Part shown: in pieces, positions 21,008 through 38,592 of the stretch | Numbering within the stretch: position 1 is the stretch's first letter | Layout of the letters: each line of letters starts with the position of its first letter | Origin: Nocardiopsis flavescens | GTDB taxonomy: Bacteria; Actinomycetota; Actinomycetes; Streptosporangiales; Streptosporangiaceae | Reading direction: 5' to 3' | DNA: 64,000 bases | Assembly: GCF_900141985.1 (NCBI RefSeq) | Contig: NZ_FQZK01000001.1 | Location: 906,003 to 970,002, forward strand | Notes under the pieces: model-generated | Told to the model about the DNA's origin: nothing | What the model saw: the letters and a program-made list of their open reading frames with translations, nothing else | Database searches by the model: none | Program-made: the position numbers and the translations under genes

Positions 21008-22402
21008 TCAGCGCAGCGGGCCCACCGGCCCCGACGGGATGCTCCGCCCCAGCGGGCGGGGGTCGGCGAGCGCCCCGTCGCGGACCACCACCCGCCCGCC
21101 CACGACCACCGTGCGGGCCCGGCCCGTCAGCTCCCGCCCCTCATAGGGGGTGTAGTCGGTGGCCATGTGCAGGTCCCCCGTGCGCACCGTCCACCGGGCG
21201 GCCGGGTCCCACAGCACGATGTCGGCGTCCGACCCCGGCGCCAGCACCCCCTTGCGCGGGTACAGCCCGTTCAGGCGCGCCGGGGCCGCCGCCACCAGGT
21301 CCACGAACCGCGTGGCCGACAGCCCCCGCCCCGCCACGTACTCCGAGTACAGCACCGCCAGGCGGGTCTCCACGCCGGGCAGCCCGTTGGGCATGGCCCG
21401 CACGTCGTGGCGGTGCCGCTCCTTCTGCGCGGTGTCGTAGCAGCAGTGGTCGCTGCCGACCGTGCTGATCTCGCCGGTGAACAGGTGCCGCCCCAGGGCC
21501 TCGACCGTGGCCCGCGGGCGCAGCGGCGGGCAGCACACGAACCGCTCGGGGTGCTCGCCCGCGTACGCGCCCTCGTCCAGCACCAGGTGGTGGGCGACCG
21601 CCTCGCTGTAGGCGGGCCGGCCGCGCCGCCGGGCCGCCGCGACCAGTTCCACGGCCTCGGCGGAGGACTGGTGGACGAAGTACACCGGCGCGCCCACCGA
21701 CTCGGCGATCGCCAGCACCTCGGCGACCGAGGCCGTCTCGGCCAGCTCGGGCCGGGTGTCCCCCATGTGCTCGGCGCCCGTCCGGCCGCGGTCCCCGCTG
21801 AGCCGCTGGGCCTCCTCGATGATGTGGTCGGCCTCGCAGTGGATCACCACCATGCCGCCGGTGGCGCCCACCGCCTTCATGGTCCGCAGCACCGTGTACT
21901 CGTCGGCCATGGTCTCGCCGCGGTAGGTGGTGAACATCTTGATCGTGTTCACCCCCAGGCCCGCCATGGCGGCCAGCTGCTCCCCGGTCGTGTCGTCCCA
22001 GGTCACCACGCACCCGTGCAGGGCGCTGTCGCACAGGCCCTGCCCGGCCGCCCCCTGCCGCTCGCGCACGGCCTCCAGGGGGCTCTGCCCCGGCCCGGGG
22101 ATGGCGAAGTCCACGATGGTCGTGGTGCCCCCGAAGACGGCGGCGGTGGTGCACCCCCGGTAGTCGTCCAGGGAGGTGAACTCCCCCGAGGTGAACCCGA
22201 CGTGGCAGTGGGGGTCGACCCCGCCCGGCAGGACCAGCAGGCCGGTCGCGTCGACCTCCTCGGGGCGGGACCCGTCCGGGGCGGGCGCGCCGGGCTCGGC
22301 CAGCGCCAGCACCCGGCCCGCGCCGACGAACACGTCGGCCGCGCCCTGCCAGTCGGCGTTGACGACGGTGCCCCCGCGCACGACCAGGTCGGCGGCGCTC
22401 AC
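21008..22402 (-). CDS. Dihydropyrimidinase / D-hydantoinase
   Basis: 464 residues of the cyclic amidohydrolase family, which open dihydropyrimidine or 5-substituted hydantoin rings to N-carbamoyl acids. All binuclear-site ligands are present: His65 and His67 (GGVDPHCH), the carboxylated Lys155 (NTIKMF), His188 (VIHCEAD), His244 (YFVHQSS) and Asp318 (GSDHC). Last gene of a 14-gene minus-strand cluster; its GTG start overlaps the preceding stop (GTGA, 22399-22402). With HyuA/HyuB and an importer in the same cluster it probably acts on an imported cyclic amide or imide rather than on pyrimidines. Confidence 0.93.
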   Translation of the reverse strand: MSAADLVVRGGTVVNADWQGAADVFVGAGRVLALAEPGAPAPDGSRPEEVDATGLLVLPGGVDPHCHVGFTSGEFTSLDDYRGCTTAAVFGGTTTIVDFAIPGPGQSPLEAVRERQGAAGQGLCDSALHGCVVTWDDTTGEQLAAMAGLGVNTIKMFTTYRGETMADEYTVLRTMKAVGATGGMVVIHCEADHIIEEAQRLSGDRGRTGAEHMGDTRPELAETASVAEVLAIAESVGAPVYFVHQSSAEAVELVAAARRRGRPAYSEAVAHHLVLDEGAYAGEHPERFVCCPPLRPRATVEALGRHLFTGEISTVGSDHCCYDTAQKERHRHDVRAMPNGLPGVETRLAVLYSEYVAGRGLSATRFVDLVAAAPARLNGLYPRKGVLAPGSDADIVLWDPAARWTVRTGDLHMATDYTPYEGRELTGRARTVVVGGRVVVRDGALADPRPLGRSIPSGPVGPLR

Positions 22403-22791
22403 CGCTCCTCCCCGGCGGCCAGGTGGGCGCGCCAGCCGCCCCGGTCGCTGATGTCGCTCACGCCGGGCAGCTCCAGGGAGGCGGCGCGCATGCGCATGGC
22501 CAGCGACCCCGACCCGTCGGCCATCTCCACCACCCCCAGCTCCAGCTCCTCGGGCTCCTCGGGCAGCAGCCGCTCGCGCAGCTGCGCGTACTCCACCTCG
22601 TACAGCTCGCCGGGGACGGCGCGGCCCTCCTCCGCGACCGGGTGCAGGCCCGGGAACTCGTCGCGCACGGAGTAGAAGCGGTAGCGCGGCGCGGTCAGCG
22701 CCGGGCCCAGGAAGCGCGCCCCCTCCAGGGCGTGGTTGATCTCTCCGCCGGACATGGCCTGGCCGTTGACGAACATGCGGACCGTGGTCAC
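22399..22791 (-). CDS. Gamma-glutamylcyclotransferase-like protein (allophanate-hydrolase C-domain type)
   Basis: 130 residues from GTG 22791, which overlaps the upstream ATPase stop (GTGA) and has GAGGAG five bases before it. It begins MTTVRMFVNGQAMSGGEINHA and continues ARFLGPALTAPRYRFYSVRDEFPGL, a pattern shared with the C-terminal domain of allophanate hydrolases and with AIG2/gamma-glutamylcyclotransferase-fold proteins. Such stand-alone proteins occur beside amidases and hydantoinases and may handle an N-carbamoyl or glutamyl intermediate. The acidic residue expected for catalysis is plausibly one of the Glu in the middle, but I cannot assign it. Confidence 0.8.
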   Translation of the reverse strand: MTTVRMFVNGQAMSGGEINHALEGARFLGPALTAPRYRFYSVRDEFPGLHPVAEEGRAVPGELYEVEYAQLRERLLPEEPEELELGVVEMADGSGSLAMRMRAASLELPGVSDISDRGGWRAHLAAGEER

Positions 22792-23642
22792 CGGGTCTCC
22801 TCGGGGTCGTGGTGTGCGGGAACGGGGCGGAGCGCGCCCGCGCGGGCGCGCTCCGCCGCGGGGTCGGGAACGGGGACGGCGTCCAGCAGCGCGCGGGTGT
22901 AGGGGTGCTCGGGCGCGGTGTACACCTGCTCGCGCCCGCCCAGCTCGACCACCCGCCCGGAGTTCATGACGGCGACCCTCCCGCACAGGTGGTGGACGAC
23001 CGCCAGGTCGTGGGCGATGAAGAGCAGCGCCAGCCCGAGCTTCTCCCGCAGGTCGCAGAACAGGTCCAGGACCTGGGCCTGCACGGACACGTCGAGCGAG
23101 GCGACGGGCTCGTCGCAGATGAGCAGGTCGGGGCCGACCGCCAGGGCGCGGGCGATGGCGATGCGCTGGCGCTGGCCCCCGGAGAAGGAGCGCGGGTAGC
23201 GGTCCAGGTGCTCCGCCCCCAGCCCCACCGTCTCCAGGATCTGCACCGTGCGGTCCCGGCGGCGCGCCCGGTCGGGCTCGATGCCGTGGACGTACAGACC
23301 CTCCCCCACCAGCTCGGCCACGGTCATCCGCGGGTTGAGCGAGGAGTAGGGGTCCTGGAACACCATCTGGACCCGGCGCCGGGTGGCGCGCAGCGCCCGG
23401 CCCCGGGCCCGGGTGACGTCCTGGCCGCCGATGAGGACCCGCCCGGAGTCGGGGCGCACGAGTCCGGCGACGCAGCGCGCGGTGGTGGACTTGCCCGACC
23501 CCGACTCCCCGACCAGGCCCAGCGCCTCCCCCCGGCCCACGGTGAACGACACGTCGTCGACCGCGCGGGTCCCCGCCTGTCCGGGGAAGGTCTTGACCAG
23601 GTTGCGGGCCTCCAGGATCGGGGGCTCCCCCGCGGTGTTCAC
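22788..23642 (-). CDS. Dipeptide/oligopeptide ABC importer ATPase (DppF/OppF-like)
   Basis: 284 residues. Walker A GESGSGKST, signature FSGGQRQRIAIARALA, Walker B DLLICDEPVASLDVSVQ, and a C-terminal oligopeptide-type extension (EHPYTRALLDAVPVPDP). The second ATPase of the importer encoded at 28160-22788. GTG start overlaps the upstream stop (GTGA, 23639-23642). With its partner it drives uptake of the compound degraded by the surrounding enzymes. Confidence 0.93.
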   Translation of the reverse strand: MNTAGEPPILEARNLVKTFPGQAGTRAVDDVSFTVGRGEALGLVGESGSGKSTTARCVAGLVRPDSGRVLIGGQDVTRARGRALRATRRRVQMVFQDPYSSLNPRMTVAELVGEGLYVHGIEPDRARRRDRTVQILETVGLGAEHLDRYPRSFSGGQRQRIAIARALAVGPDLLICDEPVASLDVSVQAQVLDLFCDLREKLGLALLFIAHDLAVVHHLCGRVAVMNSGRVVELGGREQVYTAPEHPYTRALLDAVPVPDPAAERARAGALRPVPAHHDPEETR

Positions 23643-37499: not shown

Positions 37500-37524
37500 T
37501 TACCGTGCACGACGAGGGGAGAAG

Positions 37525-38592
37525 ATGGCGGTCACACTCAAGGACGTAGCCACGGCCGCGGGGGTCTCCCGGAGCACCGCCTCCCGGGCCCTGAGCGGCT
37601 CCGGGCTGATCTCCGAGGAGACGCGCGCCGCGGTCGAGAACGCGGCGCGCGGCCTGGGCTACCGGCCCAACCGCACCGCCAGCGCGCTGCGCTCGCGCCA
37701 GACCCACCTCATCGGGCTGGTGATGAACAACCTCATCAACGCCTCGTTCCACACCATCGCCGACGTCGTGCAGCGCCGGGCCTCCGCCGAGGGCTACCAG
37801 GTGCTGCTGTGCATCACCGACGCCGACCCCGCCAAGGAGCGCTCCGTCCTGCGCATGCTCTCCGAGCACAACGTCGACGGCGTGGTCGTCATCGGCACCG
37901 GCCGCAACTCCGACCTGGTCGACGAGCTGATGGGCGCCGGGACCGGCGCGGTCAACGTCATCCGCGGCACCGAGGGCGGCCGGGCACCCTCCGTGCTGGC
38001 CTCCGACCGCGAGGGCGCCCACGCCGCCACCCGCCGCCTGCTGGAGCTGGGCCACACCCGCATCGGCTTCGTGGGCGGCCTGGCCTCGGCCAACTCCGGC
38101 CGCGAGCGGTTCGCGGGCTACGAGCAGGCACTGCGCGAGCACGGCCTGGAGACCGACCCCGCACTCGTCGAGCGCGGCCCCTTCACCCCCGCCTTCGGCG
38201 CCGAGGGCACCCGCGCCCTCCTGGACCGGCGCCCCGACGTCACCGCCCTGTTCGCCGCCAACCACGAGGCCGTCTTCGGGGTGCTGCCCACCCTCGTCAG
38301 CCGCGGCATCCGCCTGCCCGACGACCTGTCCCTGATCTGCTACGAGGACATCAGCTGGCTGCGCAGCTGGCAGCCCCCGGTCACCGTCGTGGACAACGGC
38401 GCCGACGAGCTGGGGCGCCTGTGCTTCGACCTGCTGCTGCGCCAGATGCGCGAATCCCCCGGCCCCGGGCCGGGACCGGGCCGCGTGTACCGCGTCGGCG
38501 CCGACCTGGTGGAGCGCAGCTCCTGCGCCCCGCCGCGCACCTCACCCCTGCCCGCGCCGCCCCCGCCCCCGGCCGGCGGCACCCGCGGCTGA
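37525..38592 (+). CDS. LacI-family transcriptional regulator of the divergent catabolic cluster
   Basis: 355 residues. DNA-binding head at residues 4-50 (LKDVATAAGVSRSTASRALSG, with hinge helix GYRPNRTASALRS), then a periplasmic-binding-like ligand domain (IGLVMNNLINASFHTIADVV, IGFVGGLASANSGRERFAGY, ALFAANHEAVFGVLPTL). The last 45 residues end in a Pro-rich tail not needed for the fold. GGGGAGA before ATG 37525. Divergent to the 14-gene cluster, with matched operators on both promoters, so it is very probably its repressor; the ligand domain should sense the imported compound or a breakdown product. Confidence 0.94.
   Translation: MAVTLKDVATAAGVSRSTASRALSGSGLISEETRAAVENAARGLGYRPNRTASALRSRQTHLIGLVMNNLINASFHTIADVVQRRASAEGYQVLLCITDADPAKERSVLRMLSEHNVDGVVVIGTGRNSDLVDELMGAGTGAVNVIRGTEGGRAPSVLASDREGAHAATRRLLELGHTRIGFVGGLASANSGRERFAGYEQALREHGLETDPALVERGPFTPAFGAEGTRALLDRRPDVTALFAANHEAVFGVLPTLVSRGIRLPDDLSLICYEDISWLRSWQPPVTVVDNGADELGRLCFDLLLRQMRESPGPGPGPGRVYRVGADLVERSSCAPPRTSPLPAPPPPPAGGTRG

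Follow-up and report, generated by a model that had tools for sequence, protein, structure and literature searches.

A modular LacI-linked gene cluster of Nocardiopsis flavescens with hydantoinase, DapA-family lyase and DAO-family oxidase: a tentative route for a masked imino or gamma-hydroxy amino acid

Between 21.0 and 38.6 kb of a 64,000-nucleotide stretch of the Nocardiopsis flavescens genome (contig NZ_FQZK01000001.1, positions 906,003 to 970,002; hereafter the window), 15 genes were called: a lacI gene on the forward strand facing 14 co-directional genes on the reverse strand. Counting from lacI, these encode a DapA-family lyase, a [2Fe-2S] protein, a flavin adenine dinucleotide (FAD) protein with a Fer2_BFD domain, a DAO-family FAD enzyme, an amidohydrolase (amdH), HyuA and HyuB, then a transport half of a binding protein, two permeases and two ATPases, followed by AHC (a stand-alone allophanate hydrolase C-terminal-domain protein) and a hydantoinase. 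The cluster is modular. LacI, DapA, the DAO-family oxidase and the hydantoinase form the core of 10 long and 13 short clusters, and the short island is self-contained without HyuAB, amdH or the dipeptide importer. Gene content, conservation, this modularity, a common LacI-site pattern and intact active-site motifs are the basis on which we tentatively read the cluster, with somewhat less than even confidence, as a composite operon in which a masked imino or gamma-hydroxy amino acid would be unmasked, oxidised, and then deaminated or cleaved by DapA.

The short form was found in a sampled family (f4), where 15 of 301 genomes carry the cluster-type DapA at E <= 1e-90; as in most of our scans, these genomes are a sample. 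The contexts of 13 of the 15 carriers (all except G1229 and G1238) were examined. All 13 have the same island, in which lacI separates an importer from dapA-DAO-AHC-hydantoinase, and HyuAB, amdH, the dipeptide importer and the [2Fe-2S] and alpha-like subunits are missing from all 13 island stretches. The importer consists of an amino-acid-type binding protein (SBP3; SBP_bac_3 for L101), a permease and an ATPase, and the island flanks differ among most of the 13 contexts. Long and short clusters group together in the DapA tree with moderate support (84/73, and 90/93 in a second tree), within a wider group of WxGYWPA-type DapA sequences (100/99 and 100/100), and in the DAO tree at 100/99. Judging from its gene content, the short island appears to be a full pathway in its own right.

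The binding protein of the short islands may indicate what is imported. Arg is kept at the column of the usual carboxylate-binding Arg, and Val stands at the column of the amine-binding Asp in 13/13 sequences; these ligand roles are what we take the two residues to have in the usual proteins. The replacement of Asp by Val would fit a ligand with a masked amine.

The long form was sought by scanning genome contigs for amdH with short exact peptide patterns, which miss relatives. The scan gave 25 loci, among them two Nocardiopsis at 84-85% amdH identity and a further five with the full cluster at 57-60%, in Curtobacterium, Microbacterium, Herbiconiux, Kineosporia and a Bifidobacteriaceae metagenome-assembled genome (MAG). 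The MAG cluster spans two contigs, and a contig end truncates one permease gene. Later searches added complete copies from a fourth Nocardiopsis (L164) and a second Kineosporia-family genome (L165/L166). With that of the window, the complete long clusters number 10 and represent at least six genera; the window's gene order recurs, with variants, in the nine others. Pairwise identities of seven cluster genes across eight clusters are correlated (r 0.61-0.95, uncorrected for common descent of the hosts), and the kept order and correlated identities exceed chance. Gene calls came from our own codon-usage script, which on several low-GC loci called hardly any genes or none, and which got the binding protein of L006 wrong, although it is visible by tblastn.

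In the long clusters, a block of amdH-hyuA-hyuB-SBP5-permeases-ATPases lies between DAO and the AHC/hydantoinase end, or begins after DapA where DAO is divergent. amdH is present in 10/10 long and 0/13 short clusters, while AHC, counted within clusters only, is present in 13/13 short clusters, in 4/4 long clusters of Nocardiopsis and in 0/6 other long clusters, so that within clusters the two are nearly complementary. The [2Fe-2S] and alpha-like subunits occur in 7/10 long clusters (four Nocardiopsis, the Bifidobacteriaceae MAG and two of the Kineosporia family) and in 0/13 short ones; DAO stands without partner subunits in 16 of 23 clusters (3/10 long, 13/13 short). Another variant is a class IV aminotransferase gene beside lacI in four of the ten long clusters (L003, L004 and L008 by Pfam, L165 by BLAST); the best NCBIfam match of the L003 protein, aminodeoxychorismate lyase, scores 269.9 where the cut-off is 273. 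Curtobacterium carries two extra genes, for a formamidase-like protein and an AtzH-amidase fusion, and Herbiconiux one for a pyrroline-2-carboxylate-reductase-like protein that scores under the family cut-off.

The spread of the cluster is patchy. At E <= 1e-90, DapA was found in 4 of the 40 genomes from the host genus (the host itself included), in 2 of 299 sampled in the Curtobacterium family, one of them a 52% relative in another setting, and in 3 of 13 in the Kineosporia family, one only 53% identical. Of 396 genomes sampled from the phylum, two have HyuB at E <= 1e-150, namely the host and G173 (46%). Plasmid searches returned only matches below 60% identity, among 904 records for HyuB and 586 for DapA. 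The top HyuB match (49.8%) lies in another gene setting on a haloarchaeal plasmid of Natrononativus amylolyticus (L080), which carries two HyuA/HyuB pairs, an Asp/Glu racemase-family gene and an ATP-binding cassette (ABC) importer annotated as oligopeptide/dipeptide type.

LacI orthologues, 56-95% identical, adjoin each complete cluster examined; that of the window lies at 37525..38592 on the forward strand (PF00356, PF13377). Two exact copies of the 14-mer TGCAACCGATCCCA are operator candidates in the lacI-dapA gap, one upstream of dapA (37356..37369, reverse strand) and one on the lacI side (37486..37499, forward strand). A CATAAT hexamer ends on the first base of the dapA-side site, a plausible position for a repressor. 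No other match to TGCAACCGATCCCA with <=2 mismatches occurs in the window; shuffles gave a mean of 0.40 matches and reached two in 7 of 100 cases, for a pattern derived from the site itself. In the whole host genome (G000), these two are also the only sites at <=1 mismatch (reversed control pattern, 1), and G001 and G002 have three (one outside the cluster) and two. G061 and G635 have nine sites each (controls 2 and 1), of which two each are exact and lie in the island; the seven further one-mismatch candidates in each genome are all outside it.

A degenerate 14-position pattern was fitted by eye to the known sites, which biases its counts towards success. In seven of eight long clusters scanned (all but L164 and L165), it picks out a pair of sites that fit at 13-14 of 14 positions, the best score in the Bifidobacteriaceae MAG being only 12 of 14. 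In the short islands, a site precedes dapA in 13/13 (11 at 14 of 14, two at 13) and the importer in 13/13, all at 14 of 14. Independently of the pattern fit, the exact 14-mer TGCAATCGATCCCA is common to most f4 islands, whose genomes are related. Across 20.5-38.7 kb, no site at >=13 of 14 was found beyond the two at lacI, and the gap between hyuB and the binding-protein gene ranges from 8 bases (in Microbacterium) to 279 in seven clusters measured. Therefore, an own promoter for the transport half is disfavoured and separate regulation of the two halves, which a first-pass annotation of the window had named as evidence that would tell against its interpretation, appears unlikely; its claim of one LacI-controlled unit is supported by the sole site pair and the 8-base gap. 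A sigma-70 scan gave no promoter across the stretch, the lacI-dapA gap included, but is uninformative in high-GC DNA.

All 14 genes and lacI that the first-pass annotation listed were found in its order and at about its positions, with families assigned by domain matches. The near-universal overlaps of 4-7 bases were also seen, except for gaps of 213 bases between hyuB and the binding-protein gene (with the 537-residue start) and of 78 bases between the latter and the first permease gene. On the reverse strand, the DapA-family lyase gene lies at 36363..37307 (PF00701; DHDPS 154 bits; WxGYWPA...NGSTGEWFSQ...YNWPRG, placed by alignment and trees). The presumptive trimeric dehydrogenase follows, with a gamma-like [2Fe-2S] subunit retaining its four cysteines (36088..36366; PF13510; Fer2_4 82 bits), an alpha-like subunit, the FAD protein with a C-terminal Fer2_BFD domain (34670..36091; PF07992, Pyr_redox_2, and PF04324), and a beta-like DAO-family FAD oxidase or dehydrogenase (33477..34673; PF01266; DAO 186 bits). 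The transport half consists of a family-5 solute-binding protein (SBP5) at 26547..28160 (PF00496, SBP_bac_5), whose 537-residue start is that of L001 and L164, with an alternative at 28073, ABC permeases at 25395..26468 (PF00528, PF19300) and 24496..25398 (PF00528), and ABC ATPases at 23639..24499 and 22788..23642 (both PF00005, PF08352).

The hydrolases appear intact. amdH (32188..33483) is a prolidase/Cc2672-like metal-dependent amidohydrolase (Amidohydro_1; PDB 3mtw and others), with the metal ligands and family similarity of COG1228-type amidohydrolase prolidases; its HxH, K, H, H and D residues are kept in 13/13 aligned sequences, and its Xaa-Pro specificity is putative, the Xaa-Pro-dipeptidase-like match to NF051886 scoring 232 bits under a cut-off of 500. 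HyuA (30110..32191; PF01968, PF05378; Hydantoinase_A 300 bits), the ATP-binding subunit, has intact DIGGTFVD, DVGGTS and GAVPGP motifs, and HyuB (28374..30113; PF02538; Hydantoinase_B 484 bits), the metal-binding subunit, keeps a His/Asp metal-site pattern in 10/10 aligned sequences, so that ATP motifs and metal residues are in place for a predicted lactam hydrolysis. A Lys in a K-x-x-TTP motif is common to 11/11 aligned HyuA sequences; it is a possible counterpart of CapA Lys40, which is discussed in the excerpt of PMC8453981 used here. The D-hydantoinase/dihydropyrimidinase-type cyclic amidohydrolase (21008..22402) scores 394.4 bits on TIGR02033 against a cut-off of 393.25. Among 14 aligned sequences it conserves HxH, the Lys of KM[FY], the His residues of HCE and HQS, the Asp of SDH and the Tyr of TTY, which we take to be the metal ligands and the catalytic Tyr (14/14). 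No decay of the cluster genes is apparent, and Rfam and tRNA scans of the window gave no matches.

AHC (22399..22791; 130 residues), whose gene end overlaps the hydantoinase start by 4 bases, had been labelled gamma-glutamylcyclotransferase-like in the first-pass annotation. This label was wrong: AHC matches AH_C (PF21986) at 104 bits against 30 for GGACT and has no other domain match, which rules out a true gamma-glutamylcyclotransferase. By sequence, its nearest solved structures are 5c5z, a 137-residue protein (E 4e-12), and then the allophanate hydrolase 4gyr.

Relatives of the cluster genes occur in other combinations. The nearest DapA relatives (51-53%), from G967 and G1364, branch as sister at 80/71 and lie beside PF05544-type proteins with both catalytic Cys residues and DadA-type D-amino-acid dehydrogenases. 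The G967 locus (L157; G967:C1:3541001-3561000, 6705-16128) carries a PF05544 gene, a 51% DapA, a DadA-like gene, a cupin, an FGGY kinase and a related amino-acid importer, an unusual combination of sugar kinase and D-amino-acid genes; the kinase is xylulokinase-like (358 bits against a cut-off of 380). In G173 (L110; G173:C12:80001-99000, 2618-19000), a PucR-type regulator gene separates a DapA-racemase-aldehyde-dehydrogenase-DAO operon from a divergent set of genes for HyuA/HyuB, an amidohydrolase, an M17 aminopeptidase and a sugar-type ABC importer. This locus gives a second lineage in which HyuAB paired with an amidohydrolase is tied to imino-acid catabolism. In addition, DapA occurs with all three dehydrogenase subunits in L105 and L022, where an amino-acid importer and a VOC protein accompany them, and L081 and L106 combine an importer, an amdH-like gene, DapA and the trimeric dehydrogenase without HyuAB or hydantoinase in the stretches examined. 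Because the parts are separable both here and in the islands, the ATP-dependent and ATP-independent ring openers probably act on different input forms. The first-pass annotation had proposed one combined pathway; the conserved single-regulator unit stands, but the 13/13 f4 islands without HyuAB, amdH and the dipeptide importer turn that proposal into one of separable parts.

From these data, we infer the following order of steps, together with their stereochemistry, the role of AHC and the substrate class. The starting compound would be an imino or gamma-hydroxy amino acid in cyclic-ureide (hydantoin-like) form, whose ring the hydantoinase would open. AHC in the short islands, and amdH in long clusters without AHC, would then take off the carbamoyl group. 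The freed amino or imino acid would be oxidised by DAO alone or within the [2Fe-2S]-FAD-FAD trimer; it is probably the D form, because D-hydantoinases yield D products. DapA may finally deaminate, dehydrate or cleave the resulting imine or 2-oxo acid to give central metabolites. In its simplest form, for the short island, a hydantoin or an amine-masked carboxylate would be taken up, its ring opened, and the product decarbamoylated, oxidised and passed to DapA. The amdH-HyuA-HyuB-dipeptide importer block would extend the route to peptide-, acyl- or lactam-bound forms, the importer taking up the bound forms, HyuAB opening a lactam with ATP and amdH cutting an amide bond.

This composite-operon reading is supported by the island spread, the LacI sites, the complementarity of amdH and AHC, the SBP3 Val, the DapA context in G967 and G1364 and the pairing in G173. 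Several points weigh against it. We are aware of no imino acid whose hydantoin is an abundant natural compound, and a search of PubMed Central (PMC) for names of such compounds turned up only work on synthetic hydantoins. As the first-pass annotation had noted, no N-carbamoylase of a known family is present among the 14 genes (Pfam on all, NCBIfam on 10/14; the rest of the genome was not searched), and AHC or amdH in this role is a guess; in the 6/10 long clusters without AHC, amdH would have to substitute. The SBP3 argument consists of two alignment columns, and in one of the PDB alignments (6h30, first domain) the Asp is one column off. The sister relation of the G967/G1364 (EPI-DapA) sequences stands at only 80/71, and the FGGY sugar kinase in G967 is unexplained. 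Finally, Kineosporia and Microbacterium carry both this cluster and a separate racemase-linked hydroxyproline-type operon, so the substrate would not simply be hydroxyproline. A more specific form of the route, possible but doubtful, dispenses with an epimerase: starting from a natural cyclic ureide that is absent from described pathways, a D-selective hydantoinase, together with AHC or amdH, would directly yield a D-imino or D-gamma-hydroxy amino acid for catabolism of the DapA/D-imino-acid-dehydrogenase type, which would make an epimerase unnecessary. The importer, HyuAB and amidohydrolase would then be a plug-in for peptide or lactam conjugates of the substrate, and AHC a new type of N-carbamoyl or carbamate hydrolase.

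Alternatively, the substrate may be an amino acid whose side chain bears a cyclic ureide or imide, which we consider rather unlikely. DAO would first oxidise the alpha-amine, DapA would serve as an aldolase giving pyruvate and a ring aldehyde, and the hydantoinase and AHC would open and strip the ring. The amino-acid-type importer of the short islands would suit such a ligand, and G967 pairs a 51-52% DapA with its xylulokinase-like kinase, as for release of a sugar-like fragment; moreover, DapA-family enzymes often use 4-hydroxy-2-oxo acids and LacI regulators often bind sugar-like ligands. However, SBP3 is without the usual amine-binding Asp, and the island has no enzyme for the ring aldehyde.

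The long clusters might instead degrade cyclic dipeptides or pyroglutamyl or acyl peptides of a proline-like residue, with the hydantoinase as a side imidase; on the whole this too seems unlikely. Here, the dipeptide importer, HyuAB ring opening, a prolidase-like cut of the dipeptide by amdH and action of the trimer and DapA on the imino acid would follow one another. It draws on the resemblance of amdH to Xaa-Pro dipeptidase (NF051886) and prolidases, although the amdH family also holds non-prolyl enzymes such as Cc2672. Embleya and G571 combine an importer and an amdH-like gene with DapA and the trimeric dehydrogenase, G571 having a DUF885 protein as well, and in G173 the HyuAB, amidohydrolase and M17 peptidase genes adjoin a racemase-linked operon. 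According to the part of PMC3852281 used here, some diketopiperazines are cleaved by whole cells, both of a Microbacterium isolate and of three strains that hydrolyse hydantoins, but two recombinant D-hydantoinases were inactive on all nine tried, which weakens the idea that the hydantoinase opens cyclic dipeptides. In addition, the hydantoinase belongs to the core whereas the HyuAB/amdH block does not, being missing in 13/13 short islands.

That two unrelated pathways simply lie side by side is distinctly unlikely. The block can indeed be missing, and a LacI-amdH-HyuA-HyuB stretch (45-65% identity) occurs at a contig end of an Acidobacteriaceae MAG (L005) whose genome has DapA matches of only 29-30%; this contig may be misbinned, HyuB being found in 1 of 301 sampled genomes of the family, the MAG itself. 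Against this stand the overlapping starts, the order kept with variants in all 10 long clusters of at least six genera, the single LacI site pair and the identity correlations.

An ordinary trans-4-hydroxyproline operon with additional genes is very unlikely and is rejected on the missing PF05544 and the trees, even though the same four families make up SCO6289-6292 (PMC6608401, in the parts consulted) and D-HypDH (PMC4575208, likewise). The host genome has no match to PF05544, the proline racemase family, so the noted lack of an epimerase holds genome-wide as far as this family goes. The racemase-linked hydroxyproline-type sequences of Kineosporia, Microbacterium, Embleya and G173 form a separate group (DapA 100/99 and 100/100, DAO 99/98), with which the cluster sequences share 29-37% (DapA) and 31-34% (DAO) identity. 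No semialdehyde dehydrogenase is present among the 14 genes either, as previously noted; an aldehyde-dehydrogenase-like gene, by sequence only, lies beside KdgD and glucarate dehydratase genes on contig C33 of the host and has no NCBIfam match at 1e-60. The likeness that the first-pass annotation saw between the first four genes and a D-hydroxyproline or opine module extends to the three-subunit architecture; for the hydroxyproline pathway it stops at the missing PF05544 and the DapA and DAO clades.

On the tested features, the cluster does not appear to be a member of any described pathway. As had been suspected, no published pathway explaining the whole gene set was found in PMC, which lacks most subscription journals. 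L-hydroxyproline utilisation (HypE, D-HypDH, HypD/LhpC; SCO6289-6293 and Pseudomonas lhp) likewise unites DapA, [2Fe-2S], FAD and DAO genes in one operon and follows the logic of a D-configured imino acid, but the cluster adds a hydantoinase, HyuAB and an amidohydrolase. Hydantoin operons need an N-carbamoylase and often a racemase. The cluster shares D-hydantoinase and HyuA/HyuB with hydantoin utilisation (D-hydantoinase, N-carbamoylase and racemase; HyuABC of Pseudomonas NS671), but has both ring openers together and a downstream oxidase and DapA; no hydantoin racemase is present among the 14 genes (searched as for the N-carbamoylase). The flavin-containing opine dehydrogenases (OdhABC, NoxAB/OoxAB) have the same three-subunit architecture, but DAO is partnerless in most of our clusters, and the opine clusters in the parts of PMC4575208 consulted name no DapA, hydantoinase or HyuAB. 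HyuAB belongs to the family of caprolactamase CapAB, 5-oxoprolinase and acetophenone carboxylase but scores under the CapA (511.7 of 1000 bits) and CapB (185.5 of 1000) equivalog cut-offs. Unlike the allophanate hydrolases AtzF and DUR1,2, AHC has no fused amidase domain.

Elsewhere in the window, a reverse-strand run at 13911-17361 (DoxX protein, intradiol dioxygenase, citrate-synthase-like protein, CoA-transferase III), near an IclR-like gene at 12.8-13.6 kb recognised by sequence only, is possibly another catabolic cluster. Next to the cluster, on the opposite strand, lies another amidohydrolase at 17560-19092 (Amidohydro_1, 510 aa), separated from it by a TetR gene and an NT5C-type nucleotidase gene; a TetR homologue (73%) also flanks the L164 cluster. 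Few genes were called at 51000-56600, and four 1-kb bins between 51 and 56 kb have a GC content of 62-70%, with the minimum of 62.3% at 52-53 kb, where the window as a whole has 75%; this is possibly a recent insert.

The patchy spread across the genus and the sampled families suggests a niche nutrient. The minimal island comprises eight genes (LacI, three importer genes and four enzymes), which narrows the search for its substrate accordingly. To our knowledge, the physiological substrates of hydantoinases outside pyrimidine breakdown are mostly unknown. If the proposed route is right, it would show a natural role for some hydantoinases and give a job to the stand-alone allophanate-hydrolase C domain.

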